This document shows positions 1 to 10,748 of a stretch of 12,515 nt of DNA, piece after piece. The DNA is from Flavobacterium sp. (lineage in GTDB: Bacteria > Bacteroidota > Bacteroidia > Flavobacteriales > Flavobacteriaceae), in NCBI GenBank assembly GCA_030682755.1, contig JAUXNR010000515.1, positions 1 to 12,515 on the forward strand, written 5' to 3'. A model generated the notes under the pieces. That model searched no databases. It saw only the letters and a list, made by a program, of their open reading frames with translations, and was not told the origin of the DNA. Position 1 is the first letter of the stretch; each line of letters starts with the position of its first letter. The position numbers were made by a program, and so were the translations under genes.

Positions 1-284
1 TTTAAATGGCAATTTGAAAAGTCTTCAGTCATTGCTTTAAAAAAAGTGTTTGGTCCGATGCAAGGATCAAGTATAGCAGAATTTGGTTTTAGTGTGTCTC
101 TTAATAGCCTAATCATAAACTTTGCAAGAATAGCAGACGTAAAAACTTGTCCTAAATTTTCATTTTCTTTAGGATTATTTGATTTTGTCTCGAATTCCTT
201 TGAAAAGAATAATTCCAACTGTTCTTCAAAGGTTTGCACAACCTCTTCTAATTCTTTATAGGGCTCACAAACTGAATTAAGCAT
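1..284 (-). CDS. N6-adenine-type DNA methyltransferase, N-terminal fragment (runs off the left edge)
   Basis: The minus-strand frame from an ATG at 284 is open to base 1, giving 94 codons with no stop. Residues 44-57 read LGQVFTSAILAKFM, the 'GQ(V/F)(F/Y)T..IA.FM' signature found just before the SAM-binding domain of N-6 DNA methylases. Residues 71-82 read ILDPCIGPNTFF, which fits SAM motif I (DPxxGxxxFF). The catalytic (N/D)PP(Y/F) motif would lie outside the window. The start overlaps the end of the upstream XRE gene by 8 nt, so the two are co-transcribed and probably translationally coupled. From family knowledge such enzymes protect host DNA by methylating adenines in the site recognised by a partner endonuclease. 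Whether this is a separate methylase or a fused type IIG enzyme cannot be seen here. The fragment is cut by the window, not visibly broken. Confidence 0.85.
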   Translation of the reverse strand, partial: MLNSVCEPYKELEEVVQTFEEQLELFFSKEFETKSNNPKENENLGQVFTSAILAKFMIRLLRDTLKPNSAILDPCIGPNTFFKAMTEDFSNCHL

Positions 285-576
285 TTTTAAATTTTTTATA
301 TTTTACTTGTTCCTCGGCTACTTTCAAAGCTAATAAAGCAGATTCTTCATCTCTTACAATTGAGTAAACTTTGTTTGCAAGCCATAAAGATTCAAGTTCT
401 TCAATTGGAGTACTAAAGAGTTCATTTAATTTCGTCAAATCTTCTCTTTTTAAAGGCTTTTGGTCATGCTCAACTTTACTTAGATATCCCTCTCCAATTC
501 CAAGTTGAAATGCCAGTTCCCTTTGTTTGAGTCCAGCATTTTCCCTTAATTCTTTTATTTTTTGCCCAAGCGTCAT
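277..576 (-). CDS. XRE-family HTH protein, probable controller (C) protein of a restriction-modification system
   Basis: From ATG 576 the product is 99 aa. Residues 4-58 form a Cro/C1-type helix-turn-helix (GLKQRELAFQLGIGEGYLSKVE is the helix 2-3 region). The tail (SLWLANKVYSIVRDEESALLALKVAEEQV) is characteristic of small XRE proteins next to DNA methyltransferases in Bacteroidota. Its stop lies inside the start of the methyltransferase (8-nt overlap), which fits a controller timing methylase and endonuclease expression. An in-frame TTG at 609 would add 11 residues. I prefer ATG 576 because the added residues lie outside the HTH fold and a TAnnTTTG-like box (TACTTTTG, minus strand, 607-614) covers that TTG, which would then lie upstream of the transcript. 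Role as a C protein is inferred from neighbourhood. Confidence 0.9.
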   Translation of the reverse strand: MTLGQKIKELRENAGLKQRELAFQLGIGEGYLSKVEHDQKPLKREDLTKLNELFSTPIEELESLWLANKVYSIVRDEESALLALKVAEEQVKYKKFKNA

Positions 577-606
577 TGTCTTATTTTGTACTTGTCTTGT
601 TTCGGT

Positions 607-614
607 CAAAAGTA
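607..614 (-). promoter_or_regulatory. candidate -7 box (TAnnTTTG) of the XRE/methyltransferase operon
   Basis: TACTTTTG on the minus strand is a full match to the Bacteroidota -7 consensus TAnnTTTG. It lies 31 nt upstream of ATG 576. No good TTG/TTTG -33 box is visible at the expected distance, so expression may depend on an activator such as the XRE protein itself. It overlaps the alternative TTG start at 609 and argues against that start. Confidence 0.35.
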
Positions 615-842: not shown

Positions 843-1097
843 TTATTCATTATCTATTTTATATTTCTGGATATCAAATTCAAAATTAAATAAAGCTTTT
901 GGGTGTACATTAAGTGCTAATGCAAATTTTGCTAGTGTTTTTACAGTCAAATTTCTTTTGCCTTGCTCATATTTACTCACCTCACCTGAATCAATACCAG
1001 TTAGAAACTCTATATCGTGTTGAGTTTGTTTATTTTTAATTCTTAATTCAGCTAATTTATCACCTATCTGCTTTTGCAAATCCTTACTAATATCCAT
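843..1097 (-). CDS. small XRE-family HTH transcriptional regulator
   Basis: The product is 84 aa and starts at ATG 1097. Residues about 10-70 make a Cro/C1-type HTH: IGDKLAELRIKNKQTQHDIEF, then TGIDSGEVSKYEQGKRNLTVKTLAKFALALNVHPKALF. There is no extra ligand-binding domain, so it should act as a small dimeric DNA binder. It is not part of the controller/methyltransferase operon: a strong terminator and 233 nt separate them. It is divergent from the structured region and susC operon. A perfect 14-bp palindrome (1145-1158) lies 47 nt upstream of its start and is a good candidate for its own operator. What it controls besides itself is unknown; the neighbouring RNA candidate or the susC operon are the natural guesses. 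Confidence 0.9.
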   Translation of the reverse strand: MDISKDLQKQIGDKLAELRIKNKQTQHDIEFLTGIDSGEVSKYEQGKRNLTVKTLAKFALALNVHPKALFNFEFDIQKYKIDNE

Positions 1098-1144: not shown

Positions 1145-1158
1145 TGGGATATATCCCA
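1145..1158. promoter_or_regulatory. 14-bp perfect palindrome, candidate XRE operator
   Basis: TGGGATATATCCCA is its own reverse complement. It lies in the intergenic region between the XRE gene (start 1097) and the plus-strand promoter box at 1177. A weak minus-strand -7-like box (TATTTTTA, 1133-1140) lies just downstream, so a bound dimer would sit where RNA polymerase must bind. This is a usual arrangement for XRE autoregulation; the assignment to this protein is inference. Confidence 0.5.
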
Positions 1159-1176: not shown

Positions 1177-1184
1177 TATATTTG
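1177..1184 (+). promoter_or_regulatory. perfect TAnnTTTG -7 box facing the structured RNA region
   Basis: TATATTTG matches the Bacteroidota -7 consensus exactly on the plus strand and predicts transcription starting near 1190. There is no clear TTG/TTTG -33 box 17-23 nt upstream, so the promoter is weak by sequence or activator-dependent. The XRE operator candidate lies 19-32 nt upstream of the box, which would let the XRE protein control both directions. Confidence 0.4.
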
Positions 1185-1190
1185 TTTTTC

Positions 1191-1392
1191 AATTGCATCT
1201 TAAGATGTAATTTTGCGATTCTTCAAAAAACATTGAAGCATTCGCTTAGAATCTCGTTTTCAAAAACTGGTAATTTTTAAACACGCGAGATAATAAGTAT
1301 GATGCTCACGTCCTATGGCGTGGGCTCTCTTATTCGTGTGTTGGGTATACCAGTACCTTGAAAGCGTTTAAGTTGAGTTCCACGCTTTTTTT
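1191..1392 (+). ncRNA. candidate ~200-nt structured small RNA or susC leader/attenuator
   Basis: The unit starts just after a perfect TAnnTTTG box and ends at an intrinsic terminator. Visible helices: an inverted repeat at 1191-1212 (8-bp stem with one G-U, loop CTTAAG); GATTCT/AGAATC (1217-1222/1248-1253), which competes with CTTCA/TGAAG (1221-1225/1234-1238); ATCTCG/CGAGAT (1251-1256/1286-1291); a nested arm ACACG/CGTGT (1281-1285/1335-1339), AATAAG/CTTATT (1292-1297/1329-1334) and GCTCACG/CGTGGGC (1304-1310/1319-1325) capped by TCCTATGG; GGTATACC (1344-1351); then the terminator. CGAGAT can pair either with the 5' ATCTCG or sit as a bulge in the long arm, suggesting a pseudoknot or a switch. 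I do not recognise a named RNA family: it lacks the single long hairpin of 6S RNA and the tmRNA and SRP signatures. It could be a free sRNA or a leader that attenuates susC. Confidence 0.45.
1361..1392 (+). terminator. intrinsic terminator of the RNA candidate
   Basis: AAAGCGT (1361-1367) pairs perfectly with ACGCTTT (1382-1388) around a 14-nt loop. The right arm runs into a seven-T tract (1386-1392). It would end transcripts started near 1190 and lies 372 nt before the susC start codon. Confidence 0.7.
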
Positions 1393-1415: not shown

Positions 1416-1502
1416 CCTCATCCAAAAAATTCAGGAACTCCATTAAAGAATAGTCATCATTAGGCTACACCTCAGATTCTCAGCACTGCTTTTTTCAGAA
1501 CG

Positions 1503-1533
1503 TTTCGCGTAATGATCATGTCATTTAATTTTT
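1503..1533 (+). promoter_or_regulatory. weak candidate promoter for the susC operon
   Basis: TTTC at 1503-1506, a 19-nt spacer, then TAATTTTT at 1526-1533. Each box is one base away from the Bacteroidota consensus (TTTG and TAnnTTTG) and the spacing is typical. It would give a leader of about 225 nt carrying the CTCAG repeat and the 1689-1721 hairpin. An ATGATCAT palindrome lies between the boxes. There is no better match between the RNA terminator and susC. Confidence 0.3.
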
Positions 1534-1764: not shown

Positions 1765-4700
1765 ATGAATAAATTATCATTTAACCAAAAGGGTAAACTA
1801 ATTAGGTATATATGCTCAATAGCATTTCTATTCCACTGTGTCACCTCACACGCAATACAACAACAACGGCAACAACCCATCACCGGAACGGTCAAAGATG
1901 CACAAGGCACTTTACCCGGTGTAACTGTGCTTATTAAAGGCAAAGCCGTGGGCACAATAACAGATGAAAACGGTCAGTTTTCTATCAATGCAAATCCTTC
2001 AGATGTTTTAGTATTTTCCTATATAGGCTACAAAACGGTCGAAATAACTGTAGCCAACCAAACTGCAATAAACATGCAATTAGAAGAAGACACAACACAA
2101 CTAAAAGAAGTGGTAATCAATGCGGGTTACTATTCTGTAAAAGACAAAGAAAGAACGGGAAGTATTTCCCGAATTACTGCAAAAGAACTCGAACAACAAC
2201 CGGTAAACAACGTTTTGGCGGCAATGCAAGGCAGAATGACTGGTGTAAACATCACCCAAACTTCAGGAGTTCCTGGCGGTGGTTTCGATATTGAAATCAG
2301 AGGAAGAAATAGTCTTCGTACAAACGGCAATAATCCACTCTACATCATCGATGGTGTTCCGTATTCCGCCGACCCAATCGGCACAGGCATTACCTCACCA
2401 ATCATCCCAACGCAACCAAGCCCACTAAACAGCATCAATCCTGAACTAATCGAAAGCATCGAAGTGCTCAAAGATGCCGATGCTACAGCCATCTATGGGT
2501 CAAGAGGTGCAAATGGTGTGGTACTCATAACTACCAAAAAAGGCAAAGAAGGCAAAACAACCTTCTCTGCAACCCTCTCACAAGGAGTAGGCTCAGTTGG
2601 AAATTTTATAAAACTAATGAATACCGAACAATACCTAGCCATGAGAAACGAAGCGTTCCAAAACGATGGAATCAGTGATATTCCTGCAAGTGCCTATGAT
2701 ATCAACGGAACATGGGACCAAAACCGATATACCAATTGGCAAAAAGAACTTTACGGAAACACAGCCAATATTTCCAGCATCCAAACAGCTCTTTCAGGCG
2801 GAAATGCTCAAACACAATTTTTGCTAAGCGGCAACTTCAACCAACAATCCACTGTCTTTCCGGGTAATTTCGATTACAAAAAAGCAAACTTTTTGCTAAA
2901 CGTTAGCCACACCTCAACGTCAAACAAGTTCAAATCCAACCTATCGGTGGGCTATACAGTGCAAGACAACCACCAACCATCAAATGATTTAACCCTTGAA
3001 TCACTGAGTATTGCCCCGAATGCTCCTGCATTATACGATGAATCGGGTAACTTGAATTGGGAAAACAGTACCTTCAACAATCCACTACGAAACTTAGAAG
3101 GAAACTACCTTGCCATGACTTATGATTTTATTGCCAATGGCCAATTATCCTATGCCATAACAGATGAACTAACGGCAAGAACAAACGTAGGGATAACACA
3201 CCTCAACCAAAACGATAGCAATACCGCACCATCTACTCAATATGATCCGGTATTTGGAGCAGACAGTTCTTTTTCTGCCATTTTTGTAAGTAGTGCAGAA
3301 CGAAAATCATGGATAATCGAGCCTCAACTCGATTGGAAAAAAACGTTCAGAAAAAATGAAATCTCTGTATTAGGTGGTGCAACATTCCAATCGCAACAAG
3401 GCAGTCAATTAGTGCAATACGGAATGGGTTTCGCAAGCAATAGCCTAATTTATAACTTAGCCGCTGCGTCAACCTTGATGGTGATGAATAGTCAAGAAAC
3501 AGAATACAATTACCAAGCATTCTATGGCAGAATAAACCTTAACCACGATTCAAAGTACATTCTAAACCTAACAGGAAGACGAGATGGGTCTAGTCGATTT
3601 GGTCCAGGTAAACAATTTGCCACATTTGGAGCTGTTGGAGCAGCATGGGTGTTTAGTCAAGAAGATTTTCTTGAAAACAACAATTGGCTAAGTTTCGGAA
3701 AGCTAAGAACTACATACGGAATAACAGGTAGTGACCAAATTGGCGACTATCAATACCTCGATACCTATGCTACCACAGGTCAAAACTACCAAGGCATAGT
3801 AGGAATGCAACCCACAAGACTTTTTAACCCAAAATTTGCGTGGGAAACCAACAAAAAATTTGAAGTAGCTCTAGAAATGGGATTTCTCAATGACCGAATT
3901 TTCTTTTCATCGGGATGGTTTTCTAACCGATCGTCCAACCAACTAATTGGAATTCCTCTTCCGGGAACAACCGGATTTCCATCAATACAGGCTAACCTAA
4001 ATGCAACTGTAGAAAACACAGGTACAGAATTAGGACTCCGTACCATCAATTTCAATGGTAAAGATTTTTCATGGAACACATCCATAAACCTAACTTTTGC
4101 TCAAAACAAATTACTGTCATTTCCTGATCTCGAAGGCTCAACATTCAGTAATCAATTTGTAATTGGAGAATCTGTAAGCATTAGACAGTTGTATCAATTA
4201 GAAGGCGTAAATCCCGAAACGGGTCTATATGAATTTACCGATTTAAATGGCGATGGGGTCATAACAGCAGCTGGAGATAGAAAAATTGTGAAAGATTTCG
4301 CTCCGGAATATTTTGGAGGTATTCACAATAATTTACAATACAAAAACTGGCAATTGGATTTTCTATTTCAATTTGTCAAACAACAAAACCGAAGCCATTA
4401 TACAATGTTTGCCACACCGGGAAGACTTGGCAATCAACCGGTAGAACTCATAGACAGATGGCAAGAACCAGGCGATAACGCAACTTTTCAACAAGTAACC
4501 AGCGGGACTAATCCTCTTGCAGTAGAAGCCTACAATCGATTTTCAGAAAGCACGGGAGCAGTAACCGATGCATCATTTATTAGACTAAAAAATCTGGCTA
4601 TTTCTTATACTCTCCCATACAACTACACCAAGTTTGCTCAAATCAGACTGCAATTGCAAGGGCAAAACCTTTTAACATTCACAAAATACAAAGGAATTGA

Positions 4701-4773
4701 TCCTGAATTCAAATCAATCGGTTATTTACCTCCTCTTCGTGTAATCAGTGCAGGTATGCAATTAACATTTTAA
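1765..4773 (+). CDS. SusC/RagA-family TonB-dependent outer-membrane transporter
   Basis: The product is 1002 aa, normal for the family. Residues 1-31 form a signal peptide with a plausible cut after SHA. Residues about 38-113 are a carboxypeptidase-regulatory-like beta domain (ITGTVKDAQGTLPGVTVLIKG...GQFSI...SYIGYKTVEI). The TonB-box region LKEVVINAGY follows, then the plug (about 125-245), with NPLYIIDGVPY near 188-198 and SIEVLKDADATAIYGSRGANG near 232-252. The rest is the 22-stranded barrel, with the typical SusC loop DLNGDGVITAAGDRK near 826 and a C-terminal phenylalanine. There is no STN domain and no sigma/anti-sigma pair nearby, so the ECF-sigma signalling route is unlikely. It is followed 16 nt later by its susD-like partner. 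It should import a ligand delivered by the SusD-like lipoprotein; the ligand is not readable from the sequence. Confidence 0.97.
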   Translation: MNKLSFNQKGKLIRYICSIAFLFHCVTSHAIQQQRQQPITGTVKDAQGTLPGVTVLIKGKAVGTITDENGQFSINANPSDVLVFSYIGYKTVEITVANQTAINMQLEEDTTQLKEVVINAGYYSVKDKERTGSISRITAKELEQQPVNNVLAAMQGRMTGVNITQTSGVPGGGFDIEIRGRNSLRTNGNNPLYIIDGVPYSADPIGTGITSPIIPTQPSPLNSINPELIESIEVLKDADATAIYGSRGANGVVLITTKKGKEGKTTFSATLSQGVGSVGNFIKLMNTEQYLAMRNEAFQNDGISDIPASAYDINGTWDQNRYTNWQKELYGNTANISSIQTALSGGNAQTQFLLSGNFNQQSTVFPGNFDYKKANFLLNVSHTSTSNKFKSNLSVGYTVQDNHQPSNDLTLESLSIAPNAPALYDESGNLNWENSTFNNPLRNLEGNYLAMTYDFIANGQLSYAITDELTARTNVGITHLNQNDSNTAPSTQYDPVFGADSSFSAIFVSSAERKSWIIEPQLDWKKTFRKNEISVLGGATFQSQQGSQLVQYGMGFASNSLIYNLAAASTLMVMNSQETEYNYQAFYGRINLNHDSKYILNLTGRRDGSSRFGPGKQFATFGAVGAAWVFSQEDFLENNNWLSFGKLRTTYGITGSDQIGDYQYLDTYATTGQNYQGIVGMQPTRLFNPKFAWETNKKFEVALEMGFLNDRIFFSSGWFSNRSSNQLIGIPLPGTTGFPSIQANLNATVENTGTELGLRTINFNGKDFSWNTSINLTFAQNKLLSFPDLEGSTFSNQFVIGESVSIRQLYQLEGVNPETGLYEFTDLNGDGVITAAGDRKIVKDFAPEYFGGIHNNLQYKNWQLDFLFQFVKQQNRSHYTMFATPGRLGNQPVELIDRWQEPGDNATFQQVTSGTNPLAVEAYNRFSESTGAVTDASFIRLKNLAISYTLPYNYTKFAQIRLQLQGQNLLTFTKYKGIDPEFKSIGYLPPLRVISAGMQLTF

Positions 4774-4789
4774 TCAAAAACATAATAAT

Positions 4790-6208
4790 ATGAAAAATAA
4801 AATAATACTCGCAAGCAAATCAGTTCATTACTTGTTTAAACCTAAAAGTTTGCTTTTACTAGTGTTACTAAGTTGTGTTTATTCATGCGACGAATTCGTA
4901 GAAGTAGACCTACCCAATTCTCAGTTAACTGCAGAGGCTGTTTATGAAGATAAATTCACAGCAACCGCAGCCTTAGTAGATATTTACTCCAAAATGAGAA
5001 CAGCCGGTGTGTTGTCAGGCAGTTTATCAGGAACTTCATCTTTAATCGGTAATTATGCAGACGAATTAGATTTCTATGGCAATCCGCAGTCCGCCATTCT
5101 ACCATTCTATCAAAATAGTGTTATTGCAACAAATCGCGACATCAAAACGCTTTGGGACAATAGCTATAAACAAATTTACACGGCCAATGCAGTGATAGAG
5201 GGTGTTGAACAGTCAACTTCTTTACCACAAGATACACGTGACCTATTAAAAGGAGAAGCTCTATTCATCAGAAGCATCATTCATTTTTATCTAGTCAATC
5301 TATTCAATGACATTCCGTACATCAAAACAACGGACTATCTACAAAACCGCCAAGTCAGTCGTACACCTGCCAGCGAAGTGTACCAACAAATCATTCTCGA
5401 TTTAGAAACTGCAATCACATTATTACCGGAAGAATACGCAACGGCAGATAGAGTGCGACCAAATAAATACGCTGCTTTGGCCTTACTTGCACGGGTGTAT
5501 TTATACGCAGGCTTTTGGGCAGAAGCCTCTAATGCGGCTTCAGCCGTGCTCAATAACACTGCGGTTTATCAGTTAGATACATCTGTTGAAAATAGTTTTC
5601 TAAAAAACAGTAATAGCACAATTTGGCAGTTCATGTCTTCTGCAGCCGGAATTAATACCTCAGAAGCAAGTTCATTCATTTTCAATAGTGGTCCTCCACC
5701 AAACAGTGCATTACGTGCAGAATTGCTAAATGCTTTCGAAACAAACGATTTACGTAAAACAACTTGGATTAGAACAGTTACAAACAGCACAGGCACATGG
5801 CATCATGCTTACAAATACAAAGCCAATACAAACACGGGTACATCCGTAGAGCTTTCAAAAGTGCTTCGTGTGGCAGAACTCTATTTAATTCGTGCCGAAG
5901 CTCGTGCGAGACAGGGCGAATTAATAACAGCCAAAGAAGATTTAAATGCCATCAGAATTCGCTCCGGCCTACCAGAAACTACAGCCAATGACCAAGCAGA
6001 ACTAGTAAATGCAATTCTCAACGAACGAAGAGTCGAATTATTCACAGAGTTTGGTCACCGCTTTTTCGACCTAAAAAGAATGAACCGCCTAAATGAATTT
6101 TTAGCTCCAATCAAACCGGGATGGTCAGCAACAATGTCTCACCTGCCAATTCCGGAAGCTGAGATACTGCTCAATCCAAATTTAGCACCACAAAATCCGG
6201 GTTACTAA
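4790..6208 (+). CDS. SusD/RagB-family surface lipoprotein
   Basis: The product is 472 aa. The N-terminus has a lipoprotein signal peptide ending ...LLLLVLLSCVYS-C33, followed by acidic DE, which fits export to the cell surface in Bacteroidota. The middle carries the alpha-helical TPR-like region of the family (AVIEGVEQ, LLKGEALFIRSIIHFYLVNLF). The C-terminal half has hallmark segments LRVAELYLIRAEARARQG, LNAIRIRSGLP, ERRVELFTEFGHRFFDLKR and the final LPIPEAEILLNPNLAPQNPGY. It would act as the lid over the SusC-like barrel and bind the substrate. Being 16 nt after susC and 2 nt before the S9 peptidase, it is surely co-transcribed with both. Its ligand is unknown; the peptidase neighbour points to peptides instead of glycans, and no carbohydrate-active enzyme is nearby. 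Confidence 0.97.
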   Translation: MKNKIILASKSVHYLFKPKSLLLLVLLSCVYSCDEFVEVDLPNSQLTAEAVYEDKFTATAALVDIYSKMRTAGVLSGSLSGTSSLIGNYADELDFYGNPQSAILPFYQNSVIATNRDIKTLWDNSYKQIYTANAVIEGVEQSTSLPQDTRDLLKGEALFIRSIIHFYLVNLFNDIPYIKTTDYLQNRQVSRTPASEVYQQIILDLETAITLLPEEYATADRVRPNKYAALALLARVYLYAGFWAEASNAASAVLNNTAVYQLDTSVENSFLKNSNSTIWQFMSSAAGINTSEASSFIFNSGPPPNSALRAELLNAFETNDLRKTTWIRTVTNSTGTWHHAYKYKANTNTGTSVELSKVLRVAELYLIRAEARARQGELITAKEDLNAIRIRSGLPETTANDQAELVNAILNERRVELFTEFGHRFFDLKRMNRLNEFLAPIKPGWSATMSHLPIPEAEILLNPNLAPQNPGY

Positions 6209-6210
6209 GT

Positions 6211-8826
6211 ATGAAGAGTATTAATAAAAATAAAAAGTGGTTTAGAATACTTTTTTTCATGTTAATGTCTTGTCCGTTAATCGGGCAAGGCATTCAACAA
6301 ATGCAAATAGCACCCGAAAACTATTCCTCGTGGGGAAAGTTATTCCTATCAGAGCTGTCTGAAAAGGGCAACTGGGTGAGTTACAAAATGAGCTACGAAG
6401 AAGATACCGATACCTTGTTTATCCAAAATACAAAAACTGCAATCTTGTATAAAATTCCCAAAGGTTCTTCGGGCACATTTTTTAAGGAAGAAGTATACGT
6501 GTGTTTGCTACCCGATAAAAAAGGTGTAGTTATAGATTTAATGAGTGGAAAACAAAATGTACTTGAAAACGTCAATAATCTTGAGTTAATTGAAAACACA
6601 AAAATGGTGGTTCTGAAAAATCAGGATAATGATGGAACACTACAATTAAAAATTAATGACCTTAATACAAATAAGGCTATTATTGAAATCAATGATGTAA
6701 TTGCGTATAGCATAAATCCAAATCAAACAGAAATCATCTACAGTTCAAATTCAAATAATTATAATCAGGTTTCACTTCTAAATTTACAAACGCTAAAAAC
6801 GAAAACAATTTACCATGAAAACACAACCGACTACTTCATTAATTTTAGTTGGCAAAAGCAAGGAAAGTCAGTATCGTTCAGCAAACAAGAAAAACTAAAT
6901 CAACCACTACCTTCCAAGGGAATATATTTTTACAATTTGCTAAACCAAAAAATAAAAAAGCTTGCCCCTTCCAAATTATATGAAGCGACACACGACTATG
7001 ACATCCAAGGATTTTATAGTTCATCAATAGCTATTTCTGAAAATGATAATAGACTATACATAGCATGCGTTTCCAAAAATAAATCAAAAGATGCAAATCA
7101 AAATGTTGACGTTTGGAATGCACTAAATAAGGAAATAGGCACGCGTAAAGATGACATTCGAAAATCAGCATTACTATCATGGAATACAGAAACAGAACAA
7201 GTATTTTTTCTTGGCAAAGAAGATGATCAAATTCTTCAACTAAATGAAAATCAAAATTGTTTGCTTTCATATGCCGAAAGCCACTACAAACCAACCATTA
7301 AAAGTGAAAGCGATGTCGATATTATACTCACAGATCTAAAAACAGGTAAGAGAAGTGTTATTTTAACTGAATTCTCTCGTAATTTTTCCACCTTACATTG
7401 CTCACCAAATGGCCAATATATAACTTATTTTTCAAAAGGAAATTGGTGCATTTATGATGTAAAGAATGAAAAACATACGAACCTAACTCAAAATATACAA
7501 ACCGATTTTTCAGAAGAAGTCTATAGTACAAAAGACAATGACAATTCTGCAGGTTTTGCTGGATGGTCTATGAATAATGACAGTTTCTTTGTCTACGATA
7601 AGTTTGATGTCTGGCAAATTACAGTACTTCCAAATCAAAGCAAAAGAGTGACAAAAGGAAGTGAGGAGTCAATTGTATACCGTTTAGTAAAAGATGTAGC
7701 AAAAGAGGAGAGAAACAAGCCTTTTTTTATTAAAAACACAACTATAATCAATCTAAGCCAACCAATTTTAGTAAAAGGCGAAGCAGTGGACTTTAGTAAA
7801 GAAGGCTACTTTTGGCTTTCAAATGGAAAATTGACACAAGCAACTGAATACGGTTCTTTTCATCTTAGTAACTTGCTATATGCTAAAAAGCAATTAATTT
7901 ATACAAAAGAGAAATACAACGTACCTAAACAACTTATTTTCAAATCGGAAAACTCAAAAGAAAAAGTTCTTTTTCAAAGCAACAGCCAATACAAAAAATA
8001 TCAATGGGGTCATTCTGAATTAATAAAATACACCAACTCAAAAGGTGAAGTACTAAACGGTGTTTTGTTTTATCCATTTAATTTCAATCCAAGTCAAAAA
8101 TACCCGATGGTAGTAAGAATCTATCAGAATTTGGCTTTTACACAGCACCTGTTTACAATACCAAGCTACAGAAATAGTGATGGCTTCAATAAAACAATCT
8201 ACACCAGTCAAGGCTACTTTGTTTTTTCCCCAGATATTAATTATGAAATCGGAAACCCCGGATATTCAGCCCTAGATTGTGTCGTATCAGCTACCAAAGC
8301 AGTTGTAAATAAAGGCAATATTCAAGAAAAAGAAATTGGTTTAATTGGCCACTCGTTTGGTGGCTACGAAAGTTTTTTCATTGCAACACAGTCAAATTTA
8401 TTTTCTACTATTGTAACAGGAGCGGGAGTTTCAGACCTAACCAGTTGCTATTTTACCTTCGGAAAAAGCTACAATAAACCCGAAACTTGGCGGTTTGAAT
8501 TCGGTCAAATGCGAATGGGAAAAAGTTTCTTTGAAGATAAAATAGGTTATTATGATAACTCTCCGATCACTCATCTTGATAAAGTAAACACACCTGTTTT
8601 ATCATGGACGGGTTCAAACGACTTACAAGTAAGCCCCGTTCAGACGATGAATTTCCATATGGGAATGCGTCGTCTAAAAAAAGAACACATGATGCTTCAA
8701 ATTCCCAATGAAGGTCACGTAATCCTAAATCGACAGAACCAAAAAGACTTGACAATAAAGATAAAGGAATGGTTTGATTATCATCTAAAAAAAGGCTCAA
8801 AACCGCTTTGGTCAGAACCTAACTAA
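6211..8826 (+). CDS. S9-family (prolyl-oligopeptidase-like) serine peptidase, secreted
   Basis: The product is 871 aa, fitting long Bacteroidota S9 peptidases. The N-terminus (KNKKWFRILFFMLMSCPLIGQ) is an export signal, probably cut after Q26. LMSC21 could be read as a lipobox, but the proline after the cysteine makes that less likely. Residues about 30-600 are a divergent beta-propeller-like region. The alpha/beta-hydrolase domain covers about 615-865 and carries the full triad: Ser715 in GHSFGGYES, Asp804 in TGSNDLQVS and His836 in NEGHV. All catalytic residues are present, so it should be active. The propeller normally limits access to short peptides. The gene starts 2 nt after the susD stop, implying translational coupling, and is closed by a strong terminator. 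Expected role: hydrolysis in the periplasm or on the envelope of a peptide captured by the SusC/SusD pair. An esterase activity cannot be excluded. Confidence 0.95.
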   Translation: MKSINKNKKWFRILFFMLMSCPLIGQGIQQMQIAPENYSSWGKLFLSELSEKGNWVSYKMSYEEDTDTLFIQNTKTAILYKIPKGSSGTFFKEEVYVCLLPDKKGVVIDLMSGKQNVLENVNNLELIENTKMVVLKNQDNDGTLQLKINDLNTNKAIIEINDVIAYSINPNQTEIIYSSNSNNYNQVSLLNLQTLKTKTIYHENTTDYFINFSWQKQGKSVSFSKQEKLNQPLPSKGIYFYNLLNQKIKKLAPSKLYEATHDYDIQGFYSSSIAISENDNRLYIACVSKNKSKDANQNVDVWNALNKEIGTRKDDIRKSALLSWNTETEQVFFLGKEDDQILQLNENQNCLLSYAESHYKPTIKSESDVDIILTDLKTGKRSVILTEFSRNFSTLHCSPNGQYITYFSKGNWCIYDVKNEKHTNLTQNIQTDFSEEVYSTKDNDNSAGFAGWSMNNDSFFVYDKFDVWQITVLPNQSKRVTKGSEESIVYRLVKDVAKEERNKPFFIKNTTIINLSQPILVKGEAVDFSKEGYFWLSNGKLTQATEYGSFHLSNLLYAKKQLIYTKEKYNVPKQLIFKSENSKEKVLFQSNSQYKKYQWGHSELIKYTNSKGEVLNGVLFYPFNFNPSQKYPMVVRIYQNLAFTQHLFTIPSYRNSDGFNKTIYTSQGYFVFSPDINYEIGNPGYSALDCVVSATKAVVNKGNIQEKEIGLIGHSFGGYESFFIATQSNLFSTIVTGAGVSDLTSCYFTFGKSYNKPETWRFEFGQMRMGKSFFEDKIGYYDNSPITHLDKVNTPVLSWTGSNDLQVSPVQTMNFHMGMRRLKKEHMMLQIPNEGHVILNRQNQKDLTIKIKEWFDYHLKKGSKPLWSEPN

Positions 8827-8880: not shown

Positions 8881-9156
8881 CTAATTACTTATTTTGTATA
8901 AAGGCACATTACAAGGAGAAGTCTCTGTTGCTTTTCCCCAAAGGTTAACATTCTCATACTGACAAACGTCACCAAATTCAGTAGTACACATAATCTCAGC
9001 ACGACATGGCTCTAATACCGATATAAATCGGTAACCTTGTTGATGTGAGGAAGTGGTTGCTTTCTTACTCATGGCATGAGTTGAAAATGCTCCTAAAATC
9101 CCAAGTAAAACGAATGCCATTGGCATAAACATTTTTTTAAATTGAAAATTTTTCAT
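8881..9156 (-). CDS. small secreted four-cysteine protein, DUF6520-like
   Basis: The product is 91 aa from ATG 9156. Residues 1-28 are a signal peptide (KKMFMPMAFVLLGILGAFSTHA). The mature part of about 63 aa has four cysteines at 51, 57, 65 and 82, in the pattern C-x5-C-x7-C-x16-C, and ends CNVPLYKISN. This matches what I recall of DUF6520 proteins, small envelope proteins of unknown function common in Flavobacteriia and Sphingobacteriia, often next to MauE/DoxX-like genes. The even number of cysteines suggests two disulfides outside the cytoplasm. It is the last gene of the minus-strand cluster, 81 nt after the preceding gene. I cannot assign a function; possibilities are a secreted signal or effector peptide, or a redox client of the MauE-like protein upstream. 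Confidence 0.85.
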   Translation of the reverse strand: MKNFQFKKMFMPMAFVLLGILGAFSTHAMSKKATTSSHQQGYRFISVLEPCRAEIMCTTEFGDVCQYENVNLWGKATETSPCNVPLYKISN

Positions 9157-9214
9157 AATAATAAAATTTTGGTTATTGATCTACTCTTTTTCAGGTTTTC
9201 GATCGATTCCCTGC

Positions 9215-9226
9215 TACTGGCCAGTA
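9215..9226. promoter_or_regulatory. 12-bp perfect palindrome between the propeller-like gene and the small secreted protein gene
   Basis: TACTGGCCAGTA is self-complementary and lies 11 nt past the stop at 9238. On the plus strand it runs into TTTTTTAT, a weak terminator shape; on the minus strand no T-run follows. It could be an operator for the small-protein gene, or an mRNA hairpin that separates expression levels of the two genes. Confidence 0.35.
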
Positions 9227-9237
9227 TTTTTTATAGT

Positions 9238-10311
9238 TCATTCATACTTCTTTAGTAGTTCAGATCGTAATTGATACTTAACTATTTTATCACCAACTAA
9301 TGCATAGAGAGTATGGTCATCAACAGTAAAACTTTTCATCTTTGAATTACCAATATGATAAACATAAAAACTCAAAACATAACGCTTCCCAACCAAATCA
9401 TAAACGTCAATAATGCTTGCGTTTTTCCAATTAACTGCCAATTCAAATTGACCTCGCAACATCGAATGATTAAATAAGAAATTACCATAGGTTGCACTTG
9501 ATTTATTGACAATCAGCGGAGGAGAGGCGAAGGTCTTGATAGACTTACCTTTAATTTCCTTGAGTTCGATGGTTGATTTACTAATAGTATCAATAGTTTT
9601 ACCTCTATAAAGTAATGCTAAGCTGGGCTTAAACACAGTAAATTCATTTCGATACCGATGCATATAACAGAGTAAATCGAGTTGCTTATTATAAAGCAAC
9701 GTCCCATCTGTATCAATTATGCCATCAAGCTGTTTTTCTAAAAGTGTACTTGATAAATTCACGTCAGCCGTATCACGCAAATCGTACACTCCAATAATAT
9801 TCTCTCCACTTTGAGGGGCAATATACCTGACCGCATTTCGTACAGAATCAATAGGTACCACCTGCGAGAAAAAGTTGCCGGAATTAATCTTTAGTGAAGC
9901 TTTCCAATCAAATACTGAGCCTTGAAACAAATAAGGTATCGACCCTTCATAAACATAAAAATTAGTATCATAAACCTTGACCTGTGGCTTATGAAACGGT
10001 AAGTCTTTTTCATCAAGCTCAATGAAAAACTGCTCCTTTCGTTGCAATAAAGTGTCAAGAAGTAGCATTTGAAGTGGGGCTGTAATATTGCCTAAGTAAA
10101 TAGTTGAATCTTCTATTCCCGAAAAATAATAAGAATTAAAACCCAAATCAGCTTGATTCACTTCTGTTGCAAAATGGGGTGGAAATTGCCGAATAAAGGA
10201 GTTCGTATACTGAATACTTTTCTCCGATTGTTGAAAAAGAAAAATAACAGATAATGTGCCAACAACTAAGCAACAAAGTAAGGCTACTATTTTAATAGTT
10301 AGTGATTTCAT
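9238..10311 (-). CDS. membrane-anchored protein of unknown function, possible beta-propeller
   Basis: The product is 357 aa. Residues 5-27 (TIKIVALLCCLVVGTLSVIFLFQ) are one hydrophobic segment, either an uncleaved anchor or a signal peptide. The rest is hydrophilic and rich in repeated beta-strand-like segments, such as KVYDTNFYVYEGSIPYLFQGS, IDTDGTLLYNKQLDLLCYMHRY, ASIIDVYDLVGKRYVLSFYVY and HTLYALVGDKIVKYQL. This is the look of a divergent beta-propeller facing the periplasm, and I recall hypothetical proteins of this kind next to MauE/DoxX-like genes in Pedobacter and relatives. No catalytic motif is recognisable. Its ATG overlaps the MauE-like stop by 4 nt (ATGA), so the pair is translationally coupled and probably forms a functional unit at the inner membrane. 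The propeller assignment is inference from pattern only. Confidence 0.85.
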   Translation of the reverse strand: MKSLTIKIVALLCCLVVGTLSVIFLFQQSEKSIQYTNSFIRQFPPHFATEVNQADLGFNSYYFSGIEDSTIYLGNITAPLQMLLLDTLLQRKEQFFIELDEKDLPFHKPQVKVYDTNFYVYEGSIPYLFQGSVFDWKASLKINSGNFFSQVVPIDSVRNAVRYIAPQSGENIIGVYDLRDTADVNLSSTLLEKQLDGIIDTDGTLLYNKQLDLLCYMHRYRNEFTVFKPSLALLYRGKTIDTISKSTIELKEIKGKSIKTFASPPLIVNKSSATYGNFLFNHSMLRGQFELAVNWKNASIIDVYDLVGKRYVLSFYVYHIGNSKMKSFTVDDHTLYALVGDKIVKYQLRSELLKKYE

Positions 10312-10748
10312 CTGGTAAATTTTAATTGTGTAACATCAGGATGTAGTAAAATAGCTAGTACAACCTGAATTATAAATGCAATGTTAAAGAGTAGATGCTG
10401 ATTCCATGTCATTTTCTCTAAAACTCCTCCACAGGAACAAGGAACAAAACTGCTATAAGTAAGAATAAGATAGATGTAAACCGTAAACATCACCATTAAT
10501 ATAAACGAACCAAACAAACCAAACAAGCGTGTAGTGGGCAATAAAATAAGAACAACGATGAACAACTCAATAGCAGGCACTAGCCATGAAATAATAGAAG
10601 CATAGGCACTAAGCAATGGCGATTGCCCCAACTGCACCTGAAAATTCTCATAATCCAACAACTTACTGACAGCTGCATAGACAAATAATAAAACATACAA
10701 GTAGCTTACAACTAAAACAAAACTATTTTTTATTTTATCAGAAATCAT
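10308..10748 (-). CDS. MauE/DoxX-family redox-associated membrane protein
   Basis: The product is 146 aa, with four hydrophobic segments near residues 10-30, 48-68, 76-98 and 117-138. After the third comes FVPCSCGGVLEKMTWNQHLLFN, the CxCGG-type motif of Bacteroidota MauE-like proteins, with two cysteines placed at the membrane surface. From family knowledge MauE/DoxX relatives are linked to electron transfer and to disulfide formation or maturation of exported proteins. It is the first gene of a minus-strand unit, overlapping the next gene by 4 nt. Downstream a secreted protein with four cysteines is encoded, a natural candidate client, though this link is inference. A palindrome 11 nt before the start (10760-10773) may be a regulator site. 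Confidence 0.9.
   Translation of the reverse strand: MISDKIKNSFVLVVSYLYVLLFVYAAVSKLLDYENFQVQLGQSPLLSAYASIISWLVPAIELFIVVLILLPTTRLFGLFGSFILMVMFTVYIYLILTYSSFVPCSCGGVLEKMTWNQHLLFNIAFIIQVVLAILLHPDVTQLKFTR

Follow-up and report, generated by a model that had tools for sequence, protein, structure and literature searches.

A conserved RNA element upstream of a susC operon, here named R1, is probably a cis-acting, two-state transcription attenuator of the operon that follows it, as judged from the comparison of sequences. It was found in a window of 12,515 nucleotides, by which we mean the whole stretch of Flavobacterium DNA that was analysed, and its parts are listed in Table 1. R1 is an RNA class absent from Rfam and is of a known kind, that of the two-state attenuating leaders; its tie to RNA-guided transcription is unusual. 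In attenuating leaders and riboswitches, which lie in cis upstream of the regulated gene, the same strand can be used either by a folded domain or by an intrinsic terminator. R1 resembles them in this competition and in this position, but differs in that its target genes have no shared pathway and in that it matches no Rfam 15 family at or above the gathering cut-off, a search that covered the window and the loci of four relatives (L250, L256, L261 and L268). The first-pass annotation, whose interpretation is partly supported by our results, had likewise recognised no named family in what it took to be a structured RNA of ~200 nt with two-state character, and both folds indeed covary. Among the matches listed in a literature search, no title or abstract concerned an RNA like R1.

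We propose that transcription of R1 starts from the TAnnTTTG promoter, probably near position 1190, and that use of this promoter is probably set by the divergently encoded HTH protein bound at a palindrome. The nascent RNA would then have two options. One would be an aptamer-like arm with a pseudoknot (P2, P7 and P3-P6), in which P5 and P6 keep their 3' strands occupied. In the other, these same strands would pair with the tail to form a long hairpin followed by seven U, in which case transcription would be expected to stop before susC and an RNA of ~200 nt to be released. The choice between them might be made by a ligand, a protein, a second RNA or pausing, and the genes downstream of R1 showed no common theme pointing to a ligand. 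The sequences themselves show the conservation, the two folds, the context and the guide match described below; termination, switching, binding at the operator and read-through are deductions.

Table 1. Features of R1 and its surroundings in the window (positions are those of the window).
Feature	Position	Strand	Basis or detail
Divergent HTH (XRE) regulator	843..1097	-	Pfam HTH_3, E 2e-9; start codon at 1097
Perfect palindrome TGGGATATATCCCA	1145..1158	.	palindrome scan, 61 copies vs shuffles
TAnnTTTG -7 box	1177..1184	+	read in sequence
R1 RNA, probable start to end of U run	1190..1392	+	BLAST conservation stops at U run
P1 hairpin	1215..1245	+	strands 1215-1218/1242-1245 and 1221-1226/1233-1238; covariation
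P2 pseudoknot, ATCTCG/CGAGAT	1251-1256/1286-1291	+	covaries though absent from model
Nested arm, P7 and P3-P6	1257..1364	+	covariation
P7	1257-1263/1358-1364	+	nested arm helix
P3	1266-1272/1348-1354	+	nested arm helix
P4, ACACG/CGTGT	1281-1285/1335-1339	+	nested arm helix
P5, AATAAG/CTTATT	1292-1297/1329-1334	+	nested arm helix
P6, GCTCACG/CGTGGGC	1304-1310/1319-1325	+	nested arm helix
Terminator hairpin 5' arm (3' strands of P6 and P5)	1317..1336	+	duplex energies, covariation
G1317 and 17 bases (1318-1334) equal to the L128 dCas12f guide (another genome)	1317..1334	+	sequence identity
Terminator hairpin 3' arm (tail)	1367..1385	+	duplex energies, covariation
U run, seven T	1386..1392	+	read in sequence
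Block partly complementary to R1 5' part	1471..1509	+	GATTCTCAGC vs GCTTAGAATC, 9/10
susC (TonB-dependent receptor), first gene 3' of R1	1765..4773	+	Pfam/ORF reading
susD	4790..6208	+	Pfam/ORF reading
S9 peptidase (prolyl oligopeptidase family)	6211..8826	+	Pfam/ORF reading

TAnnTTTG is the consensus of the -7 promoter box, and the box claimed in the first-pass annotation is present in the window. The motif lies 14-60 nt 5' of the start of the R1 model in 54/61 copies, compared with 1/61 for a control stretch. A palindrome with an arm of at least 7 is found near R1 in 62% of the 61 copies, compared with 8.9% of mononucleotide shuffles, and the perfect palindrome in the window is a possible operator for the divergent HTH protein.

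The covariance model of R1, built from 25 sequences over 177 positions without the pseudoknot, matches window positions 1214-1388 with 194 bits. All complementary helices named in the first-pass annotation could be located, and the stem covariation that it had proposed to look for in homologues was found. In an alignment of 62 matches (A3; 61 strong ones and a weak, 31-bit second hit in L089), 94.6% of the 2879 cells of the folded state pair and 30 of the 47 pairs have changed on both sides, values that were reached by none of 500 shuffles, while controls with slid partners gave 35-46% pairing. Because the model used for fitting this alignment contains P1 and P3-P7, these helices are favoured in the pairing statistics. 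P2 was left out of the model and still exchanges pairs (CG 51, UA 8, UG 2, AU 1 at the clearest one). Another alignment (A6; 87 matches from 86 hand-picked sources) showed changes on both sides in 33/38 pairs. The weakest helix is P4 (78.0% and 71.5% paired). At the sequence level, covariation beyond chance is confirmed for the helices, including the ATCTCG/CGAGAT pseudoknot, and a conserved fold with compensatory changes is what is expected of a two-state attenuator or riboswitch. The ATCTCG/CGAGAT complementarity had been read as a pseudoknot or a switch; it holds as a pseudoknot inside the folded state, whereas the candidate switch lies between P5/P6 and the tail.

A long hairpin immediately before the U run joins the tail to the strands that form the 3' sides of P6 and P5 (the arm). 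Of the intrinsic terminator claimed earlier, the seven-T run stands but a small local hairpin does not, since the partner of the tail is this arm; a small local terminator within the tail was superseded on duplex energies. Over 86 rows, omitting the weak L089 row, the arm had a mean duplex energy of -23.0 kcal/mol with its own tail, -20.6 with swapped tails and -9.8 with shuffled tails, and over 20 divergent rows (L216, L250-L268) the values were -23.5 for own against -19.2 kcal/mol for swapped tails (0/5000 permutations in either set). The own tail is not always the top partner of the arm (median rank 18.5 of 86), and the excess of paired arm-tail cells over shuffles is slight (94.6% vs 92.6%). 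Changes on both sides occur in 10 of the 13 arm-tail pairs, compared with 2.6 in shuffles (0/500), the tail columns carrying no structure in the covariance model, and L268 shows joint changes in P6, arm and tail. P5 and P6 need the arm as well, which makes the folded state and the arm-tail hairpin mutually exclusive, so that R1 has a terminator hairpin and U run that exclude part of its fold, as in an attenuator. Modelled without the pseudoknot, the folded state and the terminator fold have similar energies, namely -56.8 and -50.5 in the window and mean energies of -56.5 and -51.2 over 61 copies, the folded state being lower in 58/61; the terminator may therefore rarely form unaided.

The genomic context was assessed in 61 loci, the window and 60 that were fetched. 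A divergent ORF of 60 aa or more on the minus strand is present in 57/61 (absent from L084, L088, L107 and L114), with its start codon 25-121 nt 5' of the R1 model start; 41 of these 57 ORFs match HTH_26 and 36 match HTH_3, in overlapping sets. On the other side, 60/61 loci have a same-strand ORF of 120 aa or more within ~2 kb downstream. The first such ORF encodes SusC in 43/61, of which 40 are full-length and three partial or cut (L104, L106, L120), a 177-202-aa protein in 10/61, sigmaE in 5/61 and other proteins in two (L086, L093), leaving one locus with none (L091). Thus, homologues upstream of other susC genes, which the first-pass annotation had suggested seeking, do exist, and R1 occupies the upstream, same-strand position of an attenuator relative to the gene that it would regulate; the operon order in the window is susC, susD and S9 peptidase. 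That annotation had left the choice between an attenuated susC leader and a free sRNA. We favour the leader because a same-strand gene mostly follows R1, in the 61 copies as in distant relatives, and because the fold has a rival in a terminator that also covaries; the sRNA is kept as a rival, the 5' part of R1 being complementary to sequence downstream.

The 177-202-aa protein (L081-L085, L087, L088, L090, L094, L099) comes from another family of the order and has an FFxxNDL-like stretch; the one member scanned had no Pfam match. L083 and L090 have a susC-like gene after this protein.

We also considered put elements, which are RNAs that bring about processive antitermination by modifying RNAP. 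R1 could be an element of this type that modifies RNAP with no terminator switch, which would suit both the lack of a shared metabolic theme downstream and the presence of a stable fold with a pseudoknot close to where what appear to be long operons begin. However, the terminator within R1 already accounts for the covariation of the tail, and we regard this explanation as improbable.

The possibility that R1 is mainly an sRNA deserves more weight, although we still think it unlikely. The product would then be the terminated RNA of ~200 nt, whose 5' part and tail would regulate the susC leader, by pairing with its complementary block, or other mRNAs, in keeping with its own promoter-like box and U run and with the several copies per genome. 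Over the 51 of 101 loci that were used, the 5' part of R1 pairs on average better with the downstream 120 nt than shuffles do (mean -20.9 vs -13.9 kcal/mol). Yet downstream blocks swapped between loci gave -19.6 and the own block was better in just 31/51 loci, and among the controls the R1 core had a z of 0.06 and the reversed strand also reached a z of -1.5. Furthermore, most of the 61 copies lie in cis upstream of the kind of gene that is regulated, and an sRNA has no need of a switch between P5/P6 and the tail. The complementarity leaves room for an sRNA role, and attenuation alone does not account for the block. The block in the window, like that in relatives, is partly reverse-complementary to the outer segments of R1 without its core. 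The R1 tail as a guide for the downstream block was unconvincing (own 6.89, cross 6.51, permutation maximum 7.02).

In Bacteroides, FopS and GibS are described as multi-copy sRNAs tied to SusC control, FopS targeting susC mRNAs in trans around the start codon and binding RbpB (PMC11697453). R1 is likewise a multi-copy, SusC-linked RNA family but, going by this description, it differs from FopS in its cis position, its pseudoknot and its competing terminator.

The genome of the window (3.69 Mb in 950 contigs, ~96% complete, 6% contamination) carries three R1 copies, each flanked by a divergent HTH-like gene and susC. A BLAST search of 100 genomes, including that of the window, gave a match in 33 (E<=0.001), of which six match just 26-43 nt around the promoter and 27 match over longer stretches. 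The covariance model detected R1 in 102 of the 395 genomes that represented the order Flavobacteriales (E<=0.001), with up to seven copies each, and in 48/395 sampled across the phylum (E<=1e-4). These samples overlap, the E-values are rough, and the copy numbers are only lower bounds because the filters were strict and seven candidates were scored per genome. In 20 distant matches that were inspected (19 at 51-124 bits and L269 at 146 bits) the core is kept, and so is the T run in most of them (broken in L259, L261, L266 and L269). By eye, distant relatives lie 5' of an ECF sigma gene (L252), of response regulators (L256, L257, L260 and L265, with a Pfam search of the start of one gene), of SusC-like genes (e.g. 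L251, L269) and, elsewhere, of further kinds of gene. The phage records that were searched gave no match.

The sigmaE genes that follow R1 in five loci are themselves followed by a 364-381-aa protein. A profile of four such proteins matched PDB 9n9c, ‘Nuclease-deactivated Cas12f’ (E 1e-204), and one sigma of the R1-led loci matched RpoE of PDB 9n9q. In the order sample, dCas12f was found in 22/395 genomes, all of which are among the 102 R1-positive ones (by-eye comparison). R1 lies just 5' of sigmaE-dCas12f in 23/30 loci (one weak match; two loci are fragments) and at most 3 kb upstream in 43/79 named loci (two weak matches), the 43 including that of Allomuricauda (Flagellimonas) taeanensis (L154), identical to the PDB chain. 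The two sets of loci have some members in common (L145/L220 and L143/L210 are seemingly identical), so that these counts and those given below for 107 loci are not independent. The proximity, together with a pseudoknot and a suitable size, favoured at first the idea that R1 is a tracr-like guide RNA of dCas12f. However, a guide RNA should have its scaffold beside dcas12f and its guide at the 3' end, and what lies 3' of dcas12f in 94/107 loci (pattern) is a different scaffold, conserved and with ATACAAC at its end, after which a guide follows; the idea was therefore dropped. The remaining dcas12f loci have no adjoining R1, and Flavobacterium genomes carry R1 with no dCas12f match (0/12), leaving this idea next to no likelihood.

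R1 is instead a putative target of the system. The guide after the scaffold starts like the R1 arm in 74/107 loci (loose pattern), and in L128 the guide GCGTGGGCTCTCTTATT is identical to the 17 bases adjoining G1317 in the window, within the most invariant stretch of R1. The target motif is reportedly a 5'-G, and start sites are said to have a fixed spacing from the R-loop, on its far side; among the matches listed in our literature search, no title or abstract dealt with sigmaE-dCas12f. Specificity was assessed in eight chosen dCas12f genomes, namely G138 and seven in which dcas12f has no R1 next to it. They contain 20 sites with at most one mismatch to the 17-base pattern, compared with none for the reversed control pattern: ten are guide-RNA genes (after C or T) and ten are R1 elements (after G). 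Downstream of these ten elements we found a susC-like start in six, sigmaE-dCas12f in one, an unclassified ORF in one and, in two, no long ORF in the downstream piece examined. The eight genomes have 16 R1 matches (14 and two in G138), of which the ten are within one mismatch of the guide and the other six have 2-4 mismatches; in G803 a guide RNA is present and the covariance-model scan gave no R1 match. In relatives, then, R1 DNA bears a guide match beside a G, and R1 also precedes the sigmaE-dCas12f operon itself.

Guides of other types exist. The guide of A. taeanensis (TTGTGGGATA...), the species whose proteins were solved, has no match in R1, while a site in L244, GTTGTGGGATACCCG, located ~200 nt 3' of R1 in the susC leader of this species, resembles it by eye; a CCTTCC type and a type in Echinicola were also seen. 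Six loci (L145, L183, L199, L220, L222, L227) have 2-3 tandem copies of the guide RNA with differing guides, that is, small arrays, and in L194, L198 and L202 what appears to be a 5' remnant of R1 stands alone before sigmaE (by eye).

No dCas12f match was found in 12 R1-bearing Flavobacterium genomes, including that of the window (E<=10). An empty result from a set without a positive genome shows little; a similar profile had matched the 22/395 genomes of the order sample. The scaffold pattern at up to three mismatches was likewise absent from the ~96% complete genome of the window, and it gave one 3-mismatch match in each of 2/11 other Flavobacterium genomes; the positive control, G138, gave two matches, one exact. 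The window's genome thus shows neither the dCas12f nor the scaffold expected if its R1 were such a target. As none of the 12 genomes has a dCas12f match, R1 probably works without dCas12f in Flavobacterium, where its conservation can hardly stem from this protein. The invariance of the guide-matching arm could also be taken to mean that R1 is conserved solely as a DNA target or operator and not as an RNA, an explanation to which we give almost no credence given that compensatory changes occur throughout P7, P3, P2 and the arm-tail hairpin, also in genomes without a dCas12f match.

Returning to the attenuator, the guide match suggests how the two could be combined in relatives. The guide, directed against the 5' arm of the terminator, would recruit the sigmaE-dCas12f complex to R1 DNA. 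Transcripts initiated past this arm could not form the terminator, so that read-through would be expected; this bypass follows from the geometry and from the reported rule that starts lie beyond the R-loop. R1 would then be a phylum-wide RNA switch, and the R1-led susC and sigmaE-dCas12f operons would belong to a single RNA-guided regulon superimposed on an older switch. We consider the case for this extended scenario evenly balanced, and it is weakened by the six of 16 R1 elements without a close guide match and by G803 without R1. If true, an RNA class outside Rfam would govern outer-membrane nutrient uptake in Flavobacteriales and further, and the aim of natural RNA-guided activators would be explained together with their exact site, the guide lying on the strand required for the terminator. 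The class also makes it worth asking to what signals the many SusCD operons found in environmental Bacteroidota respond.

Some observations concern the surroundings of R1. Six distant relatives (L256, L257, L260, L262, L263, L265) are housed in apparent conjugative transposons; the genes upstream of R1 in L257, L262, L263 and L265 resemble what we take to be TraO/TraQ of such elements. Another relative, L292, is on a mobilizable Rhizosphaericola plasmid. To the left of the HTH gene (L064-L123), the content differs between copies and is often anti-phage-defence-like: families such as AriA, PtuA, GajA and AbiLi were each assigned by PADLOC to 3-5 of the 116 left-flank proteins that remained after four of 120 had been discarded, an uncontrolled count. 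In the window, a piece of an N6_Mtase gene lies beyond the HTH gene (3-609, minus strand). At the other end, minus-strand genes at 8881-10748, convergent to the susCD-peptidase operon, encode a DUF6520-like small protein, a 357-aa protein without a Pfam match and a MauE protein.
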